A DNA stretch of 64,000 nt from Haloarcula sp. CBA1127. GTDB lineage: Archaea; Halobacteriota; Halobacteria; Halobacteriales; Haloarculaceae. Position numbers and translations under genes: made by a program. Positions 16,084 through 59,648 of this stretch are shown piece by piece; the first letter of the stretch is position 1; the number at the start of each line of letters is the position of its first letter. The notes under the pieces were generated by a model. That model had not been told where the DNA came from. It ran no database searches and saw only the letters and a program-made list of their open reading frames with translations. The stretch lies in contig NZ_BCNB01000006.1 in NCBI RefSeq assembly GCF_001485575.1, positions 496,001 to 560,000 of the forward strand, given 5' to 3'.

Positions 16084-17439
16084 TTAGAACTTCTCGAGGT
16101 AGCGGTCGAGTTCCCAGTCGGAGACGTCGACAAGGTACTCCTTGTGCTCCTGCGTTTTGGCCTCAACGAAGTTCTCGTAGACGTGCTCGCCGAGTGCGTC
16201 CTGAATCACTTCGTCGTTTTCGAGCGCCTCGACGGCCTCGCCGAGGTTCGATGGGAGCGTGGTGATGCCGTACTCCTCGCGTTTCTCTTCGTCGAAGTCG
16301 TAGATGTTCTCGCGGACAGGGTCGTCGCACTCGAGCTCCTGTTCGACGCCGTCGAGACCGGCGTGGATGAGTGCGGCGAAGGCGAGGTACGGGTTACACG
16401 ACGGGTCGGGGAAGCGAGCCTCGATACGGCTTGCGGCCGGCGTTCGGGCGGCCGGCTTGCGGATGAGCGCCGAGCGGTTACGGTCGGACCAGGCGACGTA
16501 GACAGGCGCCTCGTAGCCCGGGACCAGACGCTTGTAGGAGTTCACGGTCGGGTTCGAGACGGCCGTGATAGCTGGTGCGTGCTTGAGGATACCGGCGGTG
16601 AAGCTCTTTGCCGTCTCGGAGAGGTTGAACTCGTCGTCCTCGTCGTGGAACGCGTTCTCGCCGTCCTCGGTGAACAGCGAGAGGTGCGTGTGCATCCCGG
16701 AGCCGTTGATCTTCGGGATGGGTTTCGGCATGAACGTCGCGTGCAGGTCGTGCTCAGCCGCGATGGCGCGGACGACAGAGCGGAAGGTTGCGACGTTGTC
16801 GGCCGTCGAGAGCGCGTCGTCGTAGGTGAAGTTGATCTCGTGCTGGCCCTGAGCGACCTCGTGGTGGGAGGCTTCGATGTCGAAGCCCATGTCTTCGAGG
16901 CCGTAGATGATGTCACGGCGCACGTCGGAGGCGAGGTCCTTCGGTGCGAGGTCGAAGTAGCCACCGGCGTCGTTGGTCTTGGTCGTCGCACGGCCCTCTT
17001 CGTCTTCTTCGAACAGGAAGAACTCGGGCTCGGGGGCGGCGTTGACCGTATAGCCCATGTCGTTTGCGCGCTCGATCGCACGCTTCAGGACGCCGCGCGG
17101 GTCACCGGAGAACGGTTCGCCGGTCGAGGTGTCGATGACATCACAGATGAGACGGGCACTGGAACCGCCTTCGACGTTTTCTCTCCACGGGAGCACGGAG
17201 AACGTCGAGGGGTCCGGGTCCAGACGCATGTCGGACTCCTGAATGCGGACGAAGCCGTTAATCGAGGAGCCGTCGAAGTAAATCCCCTCTGTGAACGCTT
17301 TCTCTGCCTGGTCGGCTGTGATCGAGACGTTCTTGATCGTGCCGAGGATGTCGGTAAACTGGAGCCGGAGGAAGTCGACGTTCTTCTCGTCGATTTCGTC
17401 GAGTACCTCCTGTGCCGCCTCTGAAAGTTCGCTTGTCAT
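16084..17439 (-). CDS. glnA: Glutamine synthetase, type I
   Basis: The protein has 451 residues. Motifs include the N-terminal [15 protein letters not shown], the metal/glutamate-site [31 protein letters not shown], and the C-terminal YLEKF. It condenses ammonia and glutamate with ATP and is the main nitrogen-assimilation enzyme. The ATG at 17439 gives the family start [16 protein letters not shown]; the longer frame to 17526 runs through the promoter. It is divergent from an Lrp-type regulator 126 bases away, an arrangement also known in other haloarchaea, so Lrp control is likely. Confidence 0.97.
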
Positions 17440-54220: not shown

Positions 54221-54352
54221 TGCGTCGAGAGTCGTTTCGGTTGCGCTGCAGAATGCCACGGCCAGCCATTGCAGCCGAGCACCAACGCGGTGGTCTATGC
54301 CGAATATGTTTTTCCACAACTGTCATGCCGGCCGCTTACCTGTCACCTGACA

Positions 54353-54715
54353 ATGGCATCACAGTCCATTTTCGAGCGGATCGGCGGTCGCGACGCGGTC
54401 GAGGCGGTGGTTTCGGACTTCTACGACCGAGTACTCGACGACCCAGTGCTCGAACCGTACTTCGAAGCGACCGACATGGACCAGCTCCGCAGCCATCAAG
54501 CGCAGTTCATCAGTGCCGTCGCCGGCGGCCCAGTCGACTACGACGGCGACGATATGCAAACCGCCCACGAGGGCATGGGAATCACCGAAGGGGCGTTCGC
54601 CAATGTCGCGACCCACCTCGAAGCCGCGCTCCGAGAGAACGGCGTCCCCGACGACGACATCGAAGCGATTCTCACCGAGGTCGCCGCCATGGAAGACGAT
54701 ATCGTGGAGGCGTAG
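54353..54715 (+). CDS. Group-1 truncated haemoglobin
   Basis: The protein has 120 residues. FYDRVLDDP near the B helix (F23, Y24), AVAGGP in the CD region, and the proximal His in TAHEGMG (H72) match group-I truncated haemoglobins. It binds haem and O2/NO, and may detoxify NO or sense oxygen. I start at the ATG at 54353. Confidence 0.93.
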   Translation: MASQSIFERIGGRDAVEAVVSDFYDRVLDDPVLEPYFEATDMDQLRSHQAQFISAVAGGPVDYDGDDMQTAHEGMGITEGAFANVATHLEAALRENGVPDDDIEAILTEVAAMEDDIVEA

Positions 54716-55188
54716 CCGGTCGCCATGAGTCAGGCACGGGCTCACGCACAGCGCCGGAGTTGGAGGCTGAAGCTGATTATGCAGCGAAACACAGTATCGC
54801 CGTCACCCTGTCCCAGCAAACGGAGACCATGACAGCGCAGGGTTTCACCCAGATGTTCAAAACAGTAGCCAAGTGTGAAAATGTCACTGTTACATACGTG
54901 TTGCCGGGAAATCAATGCGTGTGAAGGGGACGAAACCGGTGCCGTCCCCCCAAGTCGGGTTGCCGTGCCTCTGACAGGTCATGCAAGCTGACACGGTACT
55001 GGTAGTCGTCTGCCCTTCACTGTAATACTGCAAGGGTGGGTCTCGGAAGCGATTGGCTTTGTGAGACCGGATAGCAGGCAGTGAACCACAGAGACAGTGA
55101 AATGAGACCAATGACACACTTGGTACTGCTACTTCGCGGCGTGTAGTGTGGCTGTCTACATTACGATCATCCGGAGAGAGATCACTGC
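54716..55188. other. Gap at the left edge of the accessory island; possible coding remnant 54754-54924
   Basis: No complete gene is recognised in these 473 bases. A plus-strand frame from 54754 to the TGA at 54922-54924 reads like protein (ELEAEADYAAKH, TQMFKTVAKCENVTVTYV) but lacks an obvious start, so it may be a remnant of a lost gene. The opposite-strand frame at 54890-55219 does not look like a haloarchaeal protein. Base composition drops here, consistent with the edge of acquired DNA. Confidence 0.35.
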
Positions 55189-55335
55189 ATGAAATCGGGA
55201 ACGATGCTTGCGTGGTCACCGAGGAAGGAAGCGTATTTCGAGGAAGAATACGACGCCGAGCAAGGCGTCTATATCAACGGTAGTGGCCCAACGGAGCCAT
55301 CGACGAGTGCAGATGCAGAAACGAACGACGTGTAA
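55189..55335 (+). CDS. Short acidic protein upstream of a phiH-like regulator
   Basis: This 48-residue frame (MKSGTMLAWSPRKEAYFEEE, acidic to the end) lies 12 bases before the phiH-repressor-like gene on the same strand. Its acidic composition is haloarchaeal. It has no domain. The call rests on size, composition and position, so it could be spurious. Confidence 0.4.
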   Translation: MKSGTMLAWSPRKEAYFEEEYDAEQGVYINGSGPTEPSTSADAETNDV

Positions 55336-55347
55336 TCGCCCTTCACC

Positions 55348-55641
55348 ATGACGATTCGTAAGACCGCCCGCTGGCAACGGAGTATCGATGACCGAATACT
55401 GGAACACCTTCGGGATGACTCGGTATCGACAGCCAGACAAATGGCTATCCGCGACAGTATTCATGCAACGGAAGCGCAGGTACAAGATCGTTGTCGGGTG
55501 CTGGCCGATGCCGATCTGGTGGCGTTTCTGACCGAGGATCAAGATTTCGTCGAGCTGACGACGGAAGGCGAGCAGTATCTGGAGGGAGAGATCGACGTAG
55601 AGTTGTATCCGTATCCGCGGCATCCGAAGGCGATGGAGTAG
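55348..55641 (+). CDS. Winged-HTH regulator, phiH1-repressor-like
   Basis: The protein has 97 residues. RSIDDRILEHLRDDSVSTARQMAIRDSI is the start of a winged helix of the type found in phage phiH1 repressor-like proteins of haloarchaea; the wing is LTTEGEQYLEGEIDVE. Proteins of this type are typical of haloarchaeal viruses and integrated elements. It is placed at the left end of the AT-rich island and may regulate it. Confidence 0.8.
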   Translation: MTIRKTARWQRSIDDRILEHLRDDSVSTARQMAIRDSIHATEAQVQDRCRVLADADLVAFLTEDQDFVELTTEGEQYLEGEIDVELYPYPRHPKAME

Positions 55642-55700
55642 GCCGACCCGGTGGGTGGGTCGGTGGGTGAAGTAGAACGAACTGAAAAGTGGCGAAATGT

Positions 55701-55707
55701 TATATAA
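55701..55707 (+). promoter_or_regulatory. TATA box of the P-loop ATPase gene
   Basis: TATATAA starts 33 bases before the ATG at 55734, the expected distance for a leaderless archaeal transcript. A second similar stretch (55724-55730) lies too close to the start to be the TATA box. Confidence 0.6.
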
Positions 55708-55733
55708 CCTCAGAATAGACTGATATATAACTA

Positions 55734-57014
55734 ATGAGTCAAGATATCACGTCTGTCGATAATGTATTTGGTATTACAAGAGAACTGCCGAAGAATTACG
55801 TTGGAAGAGACTCAGTTGATGGTAAATTAAATGAGGATTTGTCTAGAGGTAAGCATATAGTAGTGTATGGGAGTTCTAAGCAAGGAAAAACATGTCTTAG
55901 AAAACACTGTATTGATTCGGAAGAACAGATAACCGTTCAGTGTAGTAATAAATGGGAGCTAAAAGATATACACTCGACGATTCTTAAACAGGCAGGATAC
56001 GAGATCACATTATCAGAGAAGAAGACGGTATCTGGCACACAAAAAATCAAAGCCCGCCTGTCAGCAGGAGTCCCACATTTCGGTGCAAGTTCTTCAGTAG
56101 AAGGCGAAAAATCGGAATCTACAGAGACAGAAACGAAAGAACTTGAGTTAGATCCAACCGATGTGAATGATGTAATAAGGGCGTTAAAAGAAATCGGGTT
56201 TGACAAGTATATTGTATTAGAAGATTTCCATTATTTGCCTGAAAACACACAGAAAGATTTTGCTGTGGCATTAAAAGCGTTCCACGAAGCATCACCGTTT
56301 TGTTTTATTATAGTTGGCGTTTGGCTTGAACAGAACAGGCTGATTGTACACAACGGTGATCTTACTGGCAGAGTCATCGCTGTAAACGCTGATGAGTGGA
56401 AACATAATCAACTGAGAAGGGTAATCGAGAAGGGGGAAAATATTCTCAATGTGAAATATGATCTGGATTTTAAGGACGAGTTGATAAACAATTGTTTTGA
56501 CAGTGTATACATTGTTCAAGAGGCGTGTCGAAACGTCGCTCTTGAGGAAGATGTATCAGAAACACAGCCGGAACTTGAGAGATTGGCAAGTGATACTGAT
56601 GCCAAAGATATAATTAACCAAGTTGTAGATGAGCAAAGCGCGAGGTATAGAGCGTTTATTAGGCAGTTTTCGGACGGATTTCAAGCTACGGAATTGGAAA
56701 TGTACAAATGGATACTATATCCGATATTGGAGGCAGATACCGATGACTTAGACGATGGAATACTATATGCAGATCTTCGAGAGAAAATTCAATCAGAGCA
56801 TCCTAGAGGGGACGATCTAAACCCAGGGAACCTGACACAAGCGCTCAAATCTACAGCCTCTCTACAGGTTGATAAGGATATTAAGCCGATCATCATGGAC
56901 TATGACCAAACAAACAGGCGACTCAGTATTGTAGATAGAGGATTTTTGATTTGGTTAGATAATACAGAACGAACAGAGCTATTTGAACAGGCTGGCTTGA
57001 ACGAAGTTATTTAA
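55734..57014 (+). CDS. P-loop ATPase, AT-rich, possibly defence-related
   Basis: The protein has 426 residues. Walker A is GSSKQGKT (46-53), Walker B is YIVLEDFHYLP (about 159-169), and a C-terminal region ends with LSIVDRGFLIWLDN, which resembles winged-helix output. The layout (AAA/STAND-like ATPase followed by about 200 helical residues) is that of single-protein ATPases seen in mobile islands, where some act in defence; this role is not proven here. Base composition is AT-rich. It is preceded by a clear TATA box. Confidence 0.75.
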   Translation: MSQDITSVDNVFGITRELPKNYVGRDSVDGKLNEDLSRGKHIVVYGSSKQGKTCLRKHCIDSEEQITVQCSNKWELKDIHSTILKQAGYEITLSEKKTVSGTQKIKARLSAGVPHFGASSSVEGEKSESTETETKELELDPTDVNDVIRALKEIGFDKYIVLEDFHYLPENTQKDFAVALKAFHEASPFCFIIVGVWLEQNRLIVHNGDLTGRVIAVNADEWKHNQLRRVIEKGENILNVKYDLDFKDELINNCFDSVYIVQEACRNVALEEDVSETQPELERLASDTDAKDIINQVVDEQSARYRAFIRQFSDGFQATELEMYKWILYPILEADTDDLDDGILYADLREKIQSEHPRGDDLNPGNLTQALKSTASLQVDKDIKPIIMDYDQTNRRLSIVDRGFLIWLDNTERTELFEQAGLNEVI

Positions 57015-57143
57015 TTATAGATATTTGGGTGTCTGAGTCGATTGCCGAAGCTTGGTAACTAAATAATAGAACCTTGAGATGGTATAAATATATGAATTCA
57101 CCAATAAATTGAAGTGGATAGTTTTGAATTGTAAAACCACGTC

Positions 57144-57806
57144 ATGAAACGCCGTGATGCGATTAAGGGTGGGTTGGTAACAATTCTTTCGACTGGTATT
57201 GCAGGTTGTGGAATCCTTGGTGGGAGTGGTGTCCAAGATAGCGACGGTGACGGAGTAATTGATTCAGAAGACTATGCACCGCAAGACTCTGATGTACAGG
57301 AGAAATCTGATATTAGCGGTTCAGATAGCTCTCAGAGTTCCGGTCCTAAGACAGATACAGGATCAAACTCGGAGAGTGAGCTAATCGGAACTGCTGTCGG
57401 GAAATACAAAGCAGGGTATCAGGGAATGCAGAGTAGCAAGGATCTTCTCGGCACAGCTATCGATTCCTATGGACAGGAGAACTACGGGCTAGTGGAGATG
57501 ACTTTGGAAGGGTTTGAGCAAGACATGAGTGCGTTTTCTGATGCATTTGGTGAAGCCGCTTCAGCTGCGGACGAATTGGGAGAATCCGAAGTTCAGCAAT
57601 CAGCAATTGCGGGTCAGAACGAGATCGAGCATCTAGTGAGTGCAGCCGATAATGTTCGAGGTGCAGCAAAGGATGCCAAGAATGAAAACTGGGATGATTC
57701 AGATGCTAAGTTAGCTCAAGCACAGACAGCAATCAAGAGTGCAGAGAATCGGCATAGGGAAATGATGGAGCCAAGTGCTGTTGAGTCCAGATTGATGGAC
57801 ATCTGA
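57144..57806 (+). CDS. Tat-lipoprotein with calcium-type repeat and helical domain
   Basis: The protein has 220 residues. Its N-terminus has RR and the lipobox AGC (Cys22), so it is lipid-anchored outside the cell. DSDGDGVIDSEDYAPQDSD is a thrombospondin type-3-like calcium repeat. The rest is helical (about 80-215). A TATA-like box (57083-57092) lies about 50-60 bases upstream, implying a short leader. Function unknown; it shares the AT-rich character of its neighbours. Confidence 0.75.
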   Translation: MKRRDAIKGGLVTILSTGIAGCGILGGSGVQDSDGDGVIDSEDYAPQDSDVQEKSDISGSDSSQSSGPKTDTGSNSESELIGTAVGKYKAGYQGMQSSKDLLGTAIDSYGQENYGLVEMTLEGFEQDMSAFSDAFGEAASAADELGESEVQQSAIAGQNEIEHLVSAADNVRGAAKDAKNENWDDSDAKLAQAQTAIKSAENRHREMMEPSAVESRLMDI

Positions 57807-57936
57807 ATGAATTACTAACTGTGAATAAGTTGCAGGTAGGTAGTAAAAATTGAAAGAGACATGGAATGGTATTTTGATAGGATTAAAATATCGTTAGGAA
57901 GGACTATTCGATATGGAGAGTTCTCTACGATAGCTT

Positions 57937-58491
57937 ATGTCCTCTAATGAAAACTCAAAGGAGATACCTCAAGAGAAATTGTTTGACATACTGGGGAACA
58001 GACGAAGGCGAATAGCAGTCCATCTTCTTCAAGAAGAGGGTGCAATGAGTATGACTGATTTGGCGGAGAGAGTTGCTTCAATAGAGTTTAATTCTTCTGT
58101 AGAGAATCTTGAAGGAAAGGAAAGAAAGAGAGTTTATGTGGCATTATTTCAGACACATGTTCCGAAACTTGAAGAAGTTGGACTTGTAGAATATGATCAA
58201 GATCAAGGCTTTGTGGAAGCCACGGATGTTCTACTAGATTTACAGTATAATGTCAGGGTTGAGAAGGGAAAAACGGATAAGATATTCTTCACGATAAGAG
58301 GGATTATTGTAATCATTACTTCTTTTGTCATTATATCTACGATAAGCCCAAGTATCACCGGTGTTGAAATTGGTACACCATCTCTTGCGGTGATTATGAT
58401 ACTTATTTCAATTACACTATCATTGACCTATTATGCTGAGAAGCTGAGTGGTCCGAATATTTCAGATATAGATTTCAAGGAGAATGTATAG
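57937..58491 (+). CDS. DUF7344-like HTH protein with two membrane helices
   Basis: The protein has 184 residues. An N-terminal winged-helix (residues about 14-95; LFDILGNRRRRIAVHLLQEEGAMSMTDLAERVAS in parts, VPKLEEVGLVEYD) is typical of the haloarchaeal DUF7344 family. Two hydrophobic helices follow (about 115-145, 148-170). Such proteins are membrane-bound regulators. Its stop immediately precedes the ATG of a tiny membrane protein, so the pair forms an operon. Confidence 0.82.
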   Translation: MSSNENSKEIPQEKLFDILGNRRRRIAVHLLQEEGAMSMTDLAERVASIEFNSSVENLEGKERKRVYVALFQTHVPKLEEVGLVEYDQDQGFVEATDVLLDLQYNVRVEKGKTDKIFFTIRGIIVIITSFVIISTISPSITGVEIGTPSLAVIMILISITLSLTYYAEKLSGPNISDIDFKENV

Positions 58492-58683
58492 ATGGCGGAC
58501 GATATAACCCTCAAATCACTGTTAGAGATATTATCTCATAATGTTTTAATGATAGCCATTGCTTTTAGTATTGCCTCTGGTCTGATTTTTCAGATCAATC
58601 CAGATATTAGCAAATCACTGGGTCTTACTTCGGGTATTTTGGTTTTAATATCAGCAGCGGTATATCGGCTATCTAACCATTGA
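58492..58683 (+). CDS. Tiny two-helix membrane protein
   Basis: The protein has 63 residues. Two hydrophobic helices (about 15-34 and 43-58) separated by a short polar loop. Its start abuts the stop of the HTH-membrane protein, with no gap, so it is very likely translated with it. It has no known family. It could modulate the partner; this is a guess. Confidence 0.7.
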   Translation: MADDITLKSLLEILSHNVLMIAIAFSIASGLIFQINPDISKSLGLTSGILVLISAAVYRLSNH

Positions 58684-58722
58684 GGAGTTAACAGTTCATA
58701 GAATACAGCAGGTCAAAACGTA

Positions 58723-59349
58723 TTATCCATTTGGCCCATTATCCAATAAGAGGTCCAATAATTCTCCCCATGCAACATCCTTCTCGAATAGTCCTGCTCG
58801 AAGGTTCCACGCCCACGGCGCAGCATCGTCAGGATCGTATCCAGTCGCCTTCTCGATTTCATTTAAACTCCCGCCGAACAGTCTGTCAGTCGGTGCGTCA
58901 GCATCGGCAGGCCACGTCTCGAAGAACTCAGCGCTCTTCTTGGCCGCTTTGTACATTGCCAAGGTTGAGAGACGCTTACGCTCAGGATGGAGGTCCTTCC
59001 CGGTGTGGACAACAACAGCTTCCATGTCGACGCCGATCTTCGCGTAGCGCTTTGCCAATGGCGTGTACTGCTCGGCCACCTCTCGGCGGTTCGTTCGGGC
59101 ATCAAAGTGTGTCGAACCTTCGTCGATCAGGATGGCCTTCGGTCGGTCGCGATGTTCGAGCAGCTGCACGGCGAGATCGTGAGCTGACGTGACGACGATA
59201 TCCGTCTGTTCCCACGTCCGGACGTTCGAGAGTACCAGGAGATCATCGAGGTCGAGCGACCGCAGCGTGATCAGGAGGATAGCCGTGTTGGTCTTGCCCG
59301 TATTCGGGTTGCTCGCAGCAGTTACGAACTCCGTTGTTCTCGATCTGGT
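58723..59349 (-). pseudogene. Truncated P-loop ATPase gene (N-terminus missing)
   Basis: The frame is open from the stop at 58723 to an in-frame TGA at 59350-59352 but has no ATG. Walker A NPNTGKT (coded near 59291-59309) is inside, followed by LLVLSNVRTWEQTDIVVTSAHDLAVQL and KAILIDEGSTHFDART. The in-frame GTG at 59169 would exclude Walker A. ATPases like this occur in haloarchaeal plasmids and proviruses. The gene is GC-rich, unlike its AT-rich neighbours, and its 5' end is broken close to the tRNA fragment. Confidence 0.7.
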
Positions 59350-59392
59350 TCACCGTATTTGATTCTAAAAGCAGTAAGCCAGCAGTTTATCG

Positions 59393-59566
59393 ACGGACAC
59401 GGTGGGATTCTCACTCGACAGCGAGACTCGCTGGCTCACGGCGACGCCGTTCATACCGTGATTCTCACTGTGCTCGAACCATACACGCTTGTCCCGCGCA
59501 GTTCGAATCCGGTGCCGCTACGGCTCACCTTGTCCGCAGATAACGGGCACGGTGGGATTCGAACCC
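59393..59566. repeat. Attachment-site-like direct repeat of the tRNA-Arg 3' end
   Basis: CACGGTGGGATTC at 59398-59410 exactly matches 59548-59560 inside the tRNA-Arg gene, 150 bases to the right. The similarity extends to about 24 bases (59393-59416 versus 59543-59566) with four mismatches. Such duplications of a tRNA 3' end are left by integrative elements that use the tRNA as attachment site. GTTCGAATCC at 59501-59510 could be part of another decayed tRNA fragment. No integrase is seen, so the element is degraded or its boundaries lie elsewhere. Confidence 0.6.
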
Positions 59567-59648
59567 ACGACCGTCGGATGTCTTCCCCCGATGGCAGCGC
59601 CAGCGGAGATAGAAGTCCGACGCTCTATCCGGGCTGAGCTACGTGCCC
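59545..59648 (-). tRNA. tRNA-Arg (anticodon TCT) with intron
   Basis: The minus strand folds with acceptor GGGCACG/CGTGCCC, D arm GCTC/GAGC, anticodon stem TCGGA/TCCGA, anticodon TCT, and T arm GTGGG/CCCAC with loop TTCGAAT. About 30 bases (TCTCCGCTGG through GGGGGAAGAC) interrupt the anticodon loop after position 37, the canonical archaeal intron site. The gene spans 104 bases including the intron. Confidence 0.93.

Follow-up and report, generated by a model that had tools for sequence, protein, structure and literature searches.

The closest described relatives of the element reported here are temperate pleolipoviruses and proviruses such as HHPV4, Halfgib1 and SNJ2, which have tandem phiH-like repressors, a VP8 ATPase and a tRNA attachment site, with cargo genes sitting between the repressor and the structural module. 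Integration of pleolipovirus-type elements at tRNA genes has been published, including tRNA-Arg in the case of the induced virus Halfgib1 (PMC7911831; PMC5867852). The product of HHPV4 gene 6, HHPV4I, is a biochemically proven modification-dependent restriction enzyme that cuts Gm6ATC-containing DNA and its authors propose that it excludes other viruses (PMC10101028). In P2/P4 prophages and satellites antiviral genes are swapped at one fixed variable site within a temperate element (PMC9122126). Here we analysed a 64,000 nucleotide stretch of the Haloarcula sp. CBA1127 genome (contig NZ_BCNB01000006.1, positions 496,001 to 560,000, hereafter the window) that contains an AT-rich island beside a tRNA-Arg gene. 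The island shares the above features with the temperate pleolipoviruses, is itself non-mobile and is the remnant of one of their proviruses that has retained a probable stand-alone defence gene, an ATPase of the PADLOC phage defence candidate family PDC-S59.

The island is a deletion derivative of a provirus

GC content falls to 0.40-0.43 across positions ~55500-58700 as against 0.60-0.66 in the flanks, and the block holds open reading frames (ORFs) of 426, 220, 184 and 63 amino acids, as an original prediction made from the sequence alone had described. In close relatives the site is empty, with a globin-like gene and several hundred bases joining the tRNA region directly or via a short scar. 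As the left flank meets the tRNA region almost directly in these genomes the island is an insertion. Homology of the left flank to the relatives' empty sites, as determined by blastn and junction alignments, extends to ~55177, and each of the 32 genus members searched has the right flank in whole or in part. The features that define the element are as follows.

54269..55177, plus strand: host left flank, comprising the globin-like gene (54269 or 54354 to 54715) and downstream DNA, from blastn and junction alignments against loci L003-L013
~55178-59410: AT-rich block, provirus deletion remnant
55178..55336, plus strand: 3' fragment of phiH-like repressor 1, frameshifted and fused to host DNA, aligning to L055 7411-7600
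55348..55641, plus strand: intact phiH-like repressor 2, 97 amino acids (phrog_2440, 1.2e-31)
58723 to ~59340, minus strand: truncated pleolipovirus VP8 ATPase, residues ~131-329 of 329, N-terminus gone

The same tRNA is occupied in genome G027 by a complete provirus (L055) with the order integrase, CxxC protein, repressor 1, repressor 2, pilin gene, VP8 and further ORFs, followed by spike, VP3-like protein and Rep (DUF1424) before the tRNA end. Three collinear blocks of the window align to this provirus, namely 55197-55666 to L055 7460-7933 (87% DNA identity), 58751-59352 to L055 8839-9448 (85%) and 59355-59410 to its right edge at 17249-17304 (73%), and because of this the island is a deletion derivative of a provirus of the L055 kind. 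G021 also has an intact provirus of the L055 kind at the same tRNA, and other members of the genus retain remnants there, a VP8 piece in G016, a repressor piece in G002 and a pilin cargo gene in G024. The G024 remnant is independent and consists only of the pilin gene of the slot and its surroundings (L006 2523-3344 and L054 2610-3431).

At the left junction, ~55178, host DNA is fused into the middle of repressor 1, the reading frame of which was judged from the sequence. Repressor 2 is 96% identical to that of the G027 provirus, 75% to that of the G196 provirus and 37% to the HHPV4 repressor. A phiH-like regulator had been placed at the boundary of the block; the repressor is indeed there but belongs to the element. 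The truncated VP8 gene, which had been passed over, is 60% identical to HHPV1 VP8 and 94% identical to the G027 protein over 199 amino acids. At the right junction the break falls just ahead of the Walker A region, where the gene meets the final ~40 bp of the provirus, with ~7.8 kb gone relative to L055. The left attachment site (attL), integrase, spike, VP3 and Rep are all absent from the island, in addition to half of repressor 1 and the N-terminus of VP8. This differs from HHPV4, Halfgib1 and SNJ2. The decayed integrative element lacking an integrase that had been proposed is borne out directly by the empty sites and intact proviruses of sister genomes. Because the integrase is gone and one attachment edge is left we refer to the remnant of a provirus and not to a provirus; the truncated VP8 is its sole core gene, and its collinear DNA homology is to an intact provirus occupying the same tRNA. 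Unaided, the locus is no longer able to excise, and it has become a fixed region of the host.

The attachment site

The right border of the island consists of three parts.

59355..59410: provirus right edge with the attachment core, a copy of the tRNA 3' end, at 59393-59410, from the L055 match and junction alignment
59411..59543: older integration scar, from the displaced tRNA tail to the tRNA gene, with 59393-59432 matching the L013 scar
59544-59648, minus strand: tRNA-Arg(UCU) with a 30-nt intron, found by ARAGORN run with introns and in agreement with Rfam

ARAGORN run without introns misses this tRNA. The copy of its 3' end at 59393-59410 is identical at 17 of 18 bases to 59543-59560 at a spacing of exactly 150 bp, as originally noted. 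At empty sites, L013 for example, there is an old displaced tRNA tail and after it ~110 bp of scar, and window positions 59393-59432 are 95% identical over 40 bp to the L013 scar. Leftward of the core the sequence matches the right edge of the G027 provirus. The repeat goes beyond chance because its left bases match the edge of an intact provirus and its right bases match the scar of an empty site, and from these two half-matches the provirus appears to have used the displaced tRNA tail, rather than the tRNA itself, as its integration site. The 150-bp repeat is the right end of the provirus joined to an older displaced tail. The notion of the repeat as both ends of one small element was dropped as its two flanks match different things. 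A left attachment copy, which had been suggested as a target for searching, does not survive at the locus.

A probable stand-alone PDC-S59 ATPase

The largest cargo gene of the island and its possible promoter element are located as follows.

55700..55707, plus strand: TTATATAA, possible archaeal TATA box, 27 bp upstream of the ATPase start codon, read from the sequence
55734..57014, plus strand: PDC-S59-family ATPase, 426 amino acids, from the PADLOC profile, an alignment of relatives and a structure model

A sigma-70-type promoter scan was discarded as not meaningful for an archaeon. The protein matches the profile of the single-gene PADLOC candidate PDC-S59 over its full length (E 2.6e-84, residues 7-407 against profile positions 4-399 of 428) and has a Walker A motif (GSSKQGKT, 46-53), a Walker B region (VLEDFHYL, 161-168) and a C-terminal winged helix. 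The Walker motifs recur in 66 aligned relatives, and the residues invariant across these are kept. PDC-S59 is a candidate family only, and the window member differs in sitting in a haloarchaeal virus slot.

In the structure model (pLDDT 88.7) the whole chain is accounted for by a nucleoside triphosphatase (NTPase) domain and the winged helix. Comparison with the PDB returned the archaeal ATPases 2qen (Z 19.1, 322 residues aligned, root-mean-square deviation 5.1) and 2fna (Z 17.1) as best matches, then Orc1/Cdc6 proteins (Z 14-16), then NRC4 and CED-4. Solved structures related by sequence gave weak matches only, at E 0.37 or worse. With its Walker motifs and modelled fold the protein would be classed as a STAND NTPase, having the NTPase and winged-helix arrangement of archaeal PABY2304 and SSO1545, of NRC4 and CED-4 and, by analogy, of Avs-type defence proteins. 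It differs from these in having no recognised sensor repeats or fused effector, a TIR fusion being found only in two distant relatives encoded on plasmids of Gloeothece and Curtobacterium (C-terminal TIR, L102 2767-4281 and L103 2782-4254).

Relatives of the ATPase occur at 143 places in the genome collection, mostly bacterial and from many phyla, and are up to 58% identical. Within the genus a relative was found only in G024, 23% identical and on another contig. In the tree the window ATPase clusters (support 95/96) with the G343, Halorubrum and Halonotius proteins, nested inside bacterial sequences, while the other haloarchaeal relatives including that of the G196 provirus make up a distant group of their own with long branches. 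Since the window and G196 proteins fall into separate groups two ATPase lineages entered the same slot. Judging by its nesting in this midpoint-rooted tree the window lineage may have come from bacteria.

No recurrent partner gene was found in 80 ATPase loci, and in Halorubrum, G343 and others an AT-rich patch of 1.5-2 kb close to a tRNA holds the ATPase as its only gene. In Halorubrum sp. (L106 5719-7272) a 57% identical ATPase lies alone in AT-rich DNA ~200 bp beyond the 3' end of a tRNA-Arg gene with the UCU anticodon, the isoacceptor also present in the window. Among 100 genes lying nearest to members of the family, PADLOC recognised CBASS cyclase, DRT-type reverse transcriptase, AriA, Old, AbiL and TIR-type PDC-S35 genes. 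The TIR-type PDC-S35 genes in Salinicola and Aeromonas (L109 5093-5899; L119 1899-2804) lie directly upstream of PDC-S59 ATPases.

The repressor-VP8 slot

The block that separates the repressors from VP8, or from the structural module, is variable in the proviruses and remnants compared as well as in HHPV4 and Halfgib1. Our tally of 17 slots comprises 14 proviruses or remnants of pleolipovirus type in which VP8 is clear, two virus records and one more distant element of the same layout (L231); six VP8 loci from viral contigs were left out of it. Slot GC content was below that of the remaining sequence in all 16 slots measured (0.395-0.576 as against 0.565-0.656, Halfgib1 not being among them). 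Known or candidate defence genes were present in 6/17 slots (PADLOC at 1e-10 or better): PDC-S59 in the window and G196 (E 2e-29), a trypsin-like PDC-S45 protein in G131 (1.1e-25), a PDC-M48B protein with a Csx27-like membrane protein in G429 (1.2e-20 and 2.7e-10), the restriction enzyme HHPV4I in HHPV4, and the contents of the Halfgib1 slot. The latter (L098 8994-14219) encodes a type II restriction enzyme together with a cytosine methylase, as well as a SIR2-like protein whose sole annotation is TPR protein.

In contrast, no PADLOC match at 1e-10 was obtained for any of 46 control proteins, of which 33 came from parts of the window beyond the island and 13 were provirus core proteins. The window and G196 slots were found through the ATPase itself and the sample is small; leaving these two out, 2/10 slot proteins in one batch match (one-sided P ~0.03), to which HHPV4 and Halfgib1 add. 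The same site in related elements, in this small sample, holds different defence genes, and in several relatives the slot is exchangeable and often carries antiviral genes. It resembles the P2/P4 hotspots in this respect and differs in belonging to archaeal pleomorphic viruses, in its position between repressor and VP8 and in having in vitro proof for HHPV4I only. A search of the open-access literature, most subscription journals being outside its scope, returned no paper that describes the repressor-VP8 slot as a hotspot.

A slot protein of 335-340 amino acids is shared by most of the proviruses compared (L044 10184-11191; L221 10355-11377; L228 8585-9598; L229 4778-5785) and has no Pfam or PADLOC match. 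A motif read by eye, ...DFEI.GYEVDVKTS..., suggests a PD-(D/E)XK-like nuclease.

Interpretation

We consider it likely that a provirus remnant at a displaced tRNA-Arg(UCU) tail has kept its accessory slot, the main gene of which is a stand-alone STAND-type antiviral sensor of the PDC-S59 family. A temperate pleolipovirus-type provirus would have integrated at the displaced copy of the tRNA 3' end. As the alignments show, deletion on the left then took attL, the integrase and half of repressor 1, and on the right the VP8 N-terminus, spike, VP3 and Rep, with the accessory slot surviving the decay. The ATPase would, on its own, be triggered by some product of an incoming virus, switch nucleotide state, oligomerise and, as the effector step, halt infection. 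An antiviral function is the best explanation for this gene on the strength of sequence comparison: family membership, the contents of sister slots and the defence genes beside the family in bacteria all favour the defence cargo that had been suggested, while the alternative suggestion of a surface-sensing system found no specific support. Several points weigh against this. Sensor repeats or an effector domain were not recognised in the ATPase by Pfam, NCBIfam or PADLOC, no relative was found in 50,697 virus records or in a single-protein scan of viral contigs, and its presence in a living virus is suggested by the remnant together with the distantly related ATPase of the G196 provirus. The open-access literature yielded no experimental work on a PDC-S59 protein, many slot genes match no defence family and the control set was small.

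The adjacency of the four cargo genes on one strand with similar composition would fit a single system, for example membrane-linked sensing coupled to ATPase signalling, and homologues of the lipoprotein and DUF7344 genes also lie near a repressor in G168. We regard this as rather improbable given that the ATPase relatives of Halorubrum, G343, Halonotius and bacteria lack these partners, that the DUF7344 family is nearly ubiquitous in haloarchaea (382/392 genomes), that lipoprotein relatives adjoin repressors without an ATPase and that the first three genes are spaced 129-130 bp apart; the four genes probably do not form one system. The block could instead be inert debris with its cargo drifting and functionless in the host, as the broken VP8 and repressor 1, the missing integrase and the mere pieces retained at the same tRNA in G016 and G002 might suggest. 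This is unlikely in view of the intact ATPase, repressor 2, lipoprotein and DUF7344 frames beside broken viral genes, the retention of the invariant ATPase residues and the survival of slot cargo alone, the pilin gene, in G024. That the ATPase serves the virus, for instance as an Orc1/Cdc6-like replication or regulation factor, draws on the Orc1/Cdc6 matches in the fold comparison and on an annotated Orc1-type gene in the related virus Harhisp1. We consider it very unlikely: archaeal STAND ATPases are the top structural matches, most close relatives are bacterial chromosomal genes, with some on plasmids, beside defence genes, and the intact G027 provirus lacks the ATPase and so the virus does not need it.

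The reading of an antiviral sensor kept by a provirus remnant can be extended, tentatively and with somewhat less than even confidence, to a slot that is a general exchangeable antiviral hotspot and the archaeal counterpart of P2/P4, in which PDC-S59 would be a minimal STAND receptor from bacteria that outlived provirus decay as a domesticated host gene. This wider slot pattern is of more interest than the island itself. It gives a defined place to seek new archaeal defence genes, a fixed-border slot with mostly unannotated contents in a common temperate virus family. The island offers an example of a host retaining virus cargo after decay of the virus and a small STAND-like protein, apparently of bacterial origin, in archaea with laboratory genetics.

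Remaining cargo genes and a second AT-rich patch

Three further genes follow the ATPase.

57144..57806, plus strand: Tat lipoprotein, 220 amino acids, with signal and lipobox in the sequence
57937..58491, plus strand: DUF7344 winged-helix protein with a C-terminal transmembrane segment, 184 amino acids (Pfam PF24035, 1.5e-26)
58492..58683, plus strand: TM63, a 63 amino acid transmembrane protein predicted as an ORF

TM63 begins at the base right after the DUF7344 stop codon and gave only marginal matches elsewhere. Homologues of the lipoprotein lie beside phiH-like repressors in G009, G286 and G168 (loci L063/L233, L064/L232 and L071/L231). Both the lipoprotein and the DUF7344/TM63 pair probably represent separate cargo, independent passengers of the slot, and as a guess the lipoprotein might block superinfection. 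Elsewhere in the window a second AT-rich patch (GC ~0.38) contains a Tat lipoprotein-like ORF of 494 amino acids at 1403-2887 on the plus strand.

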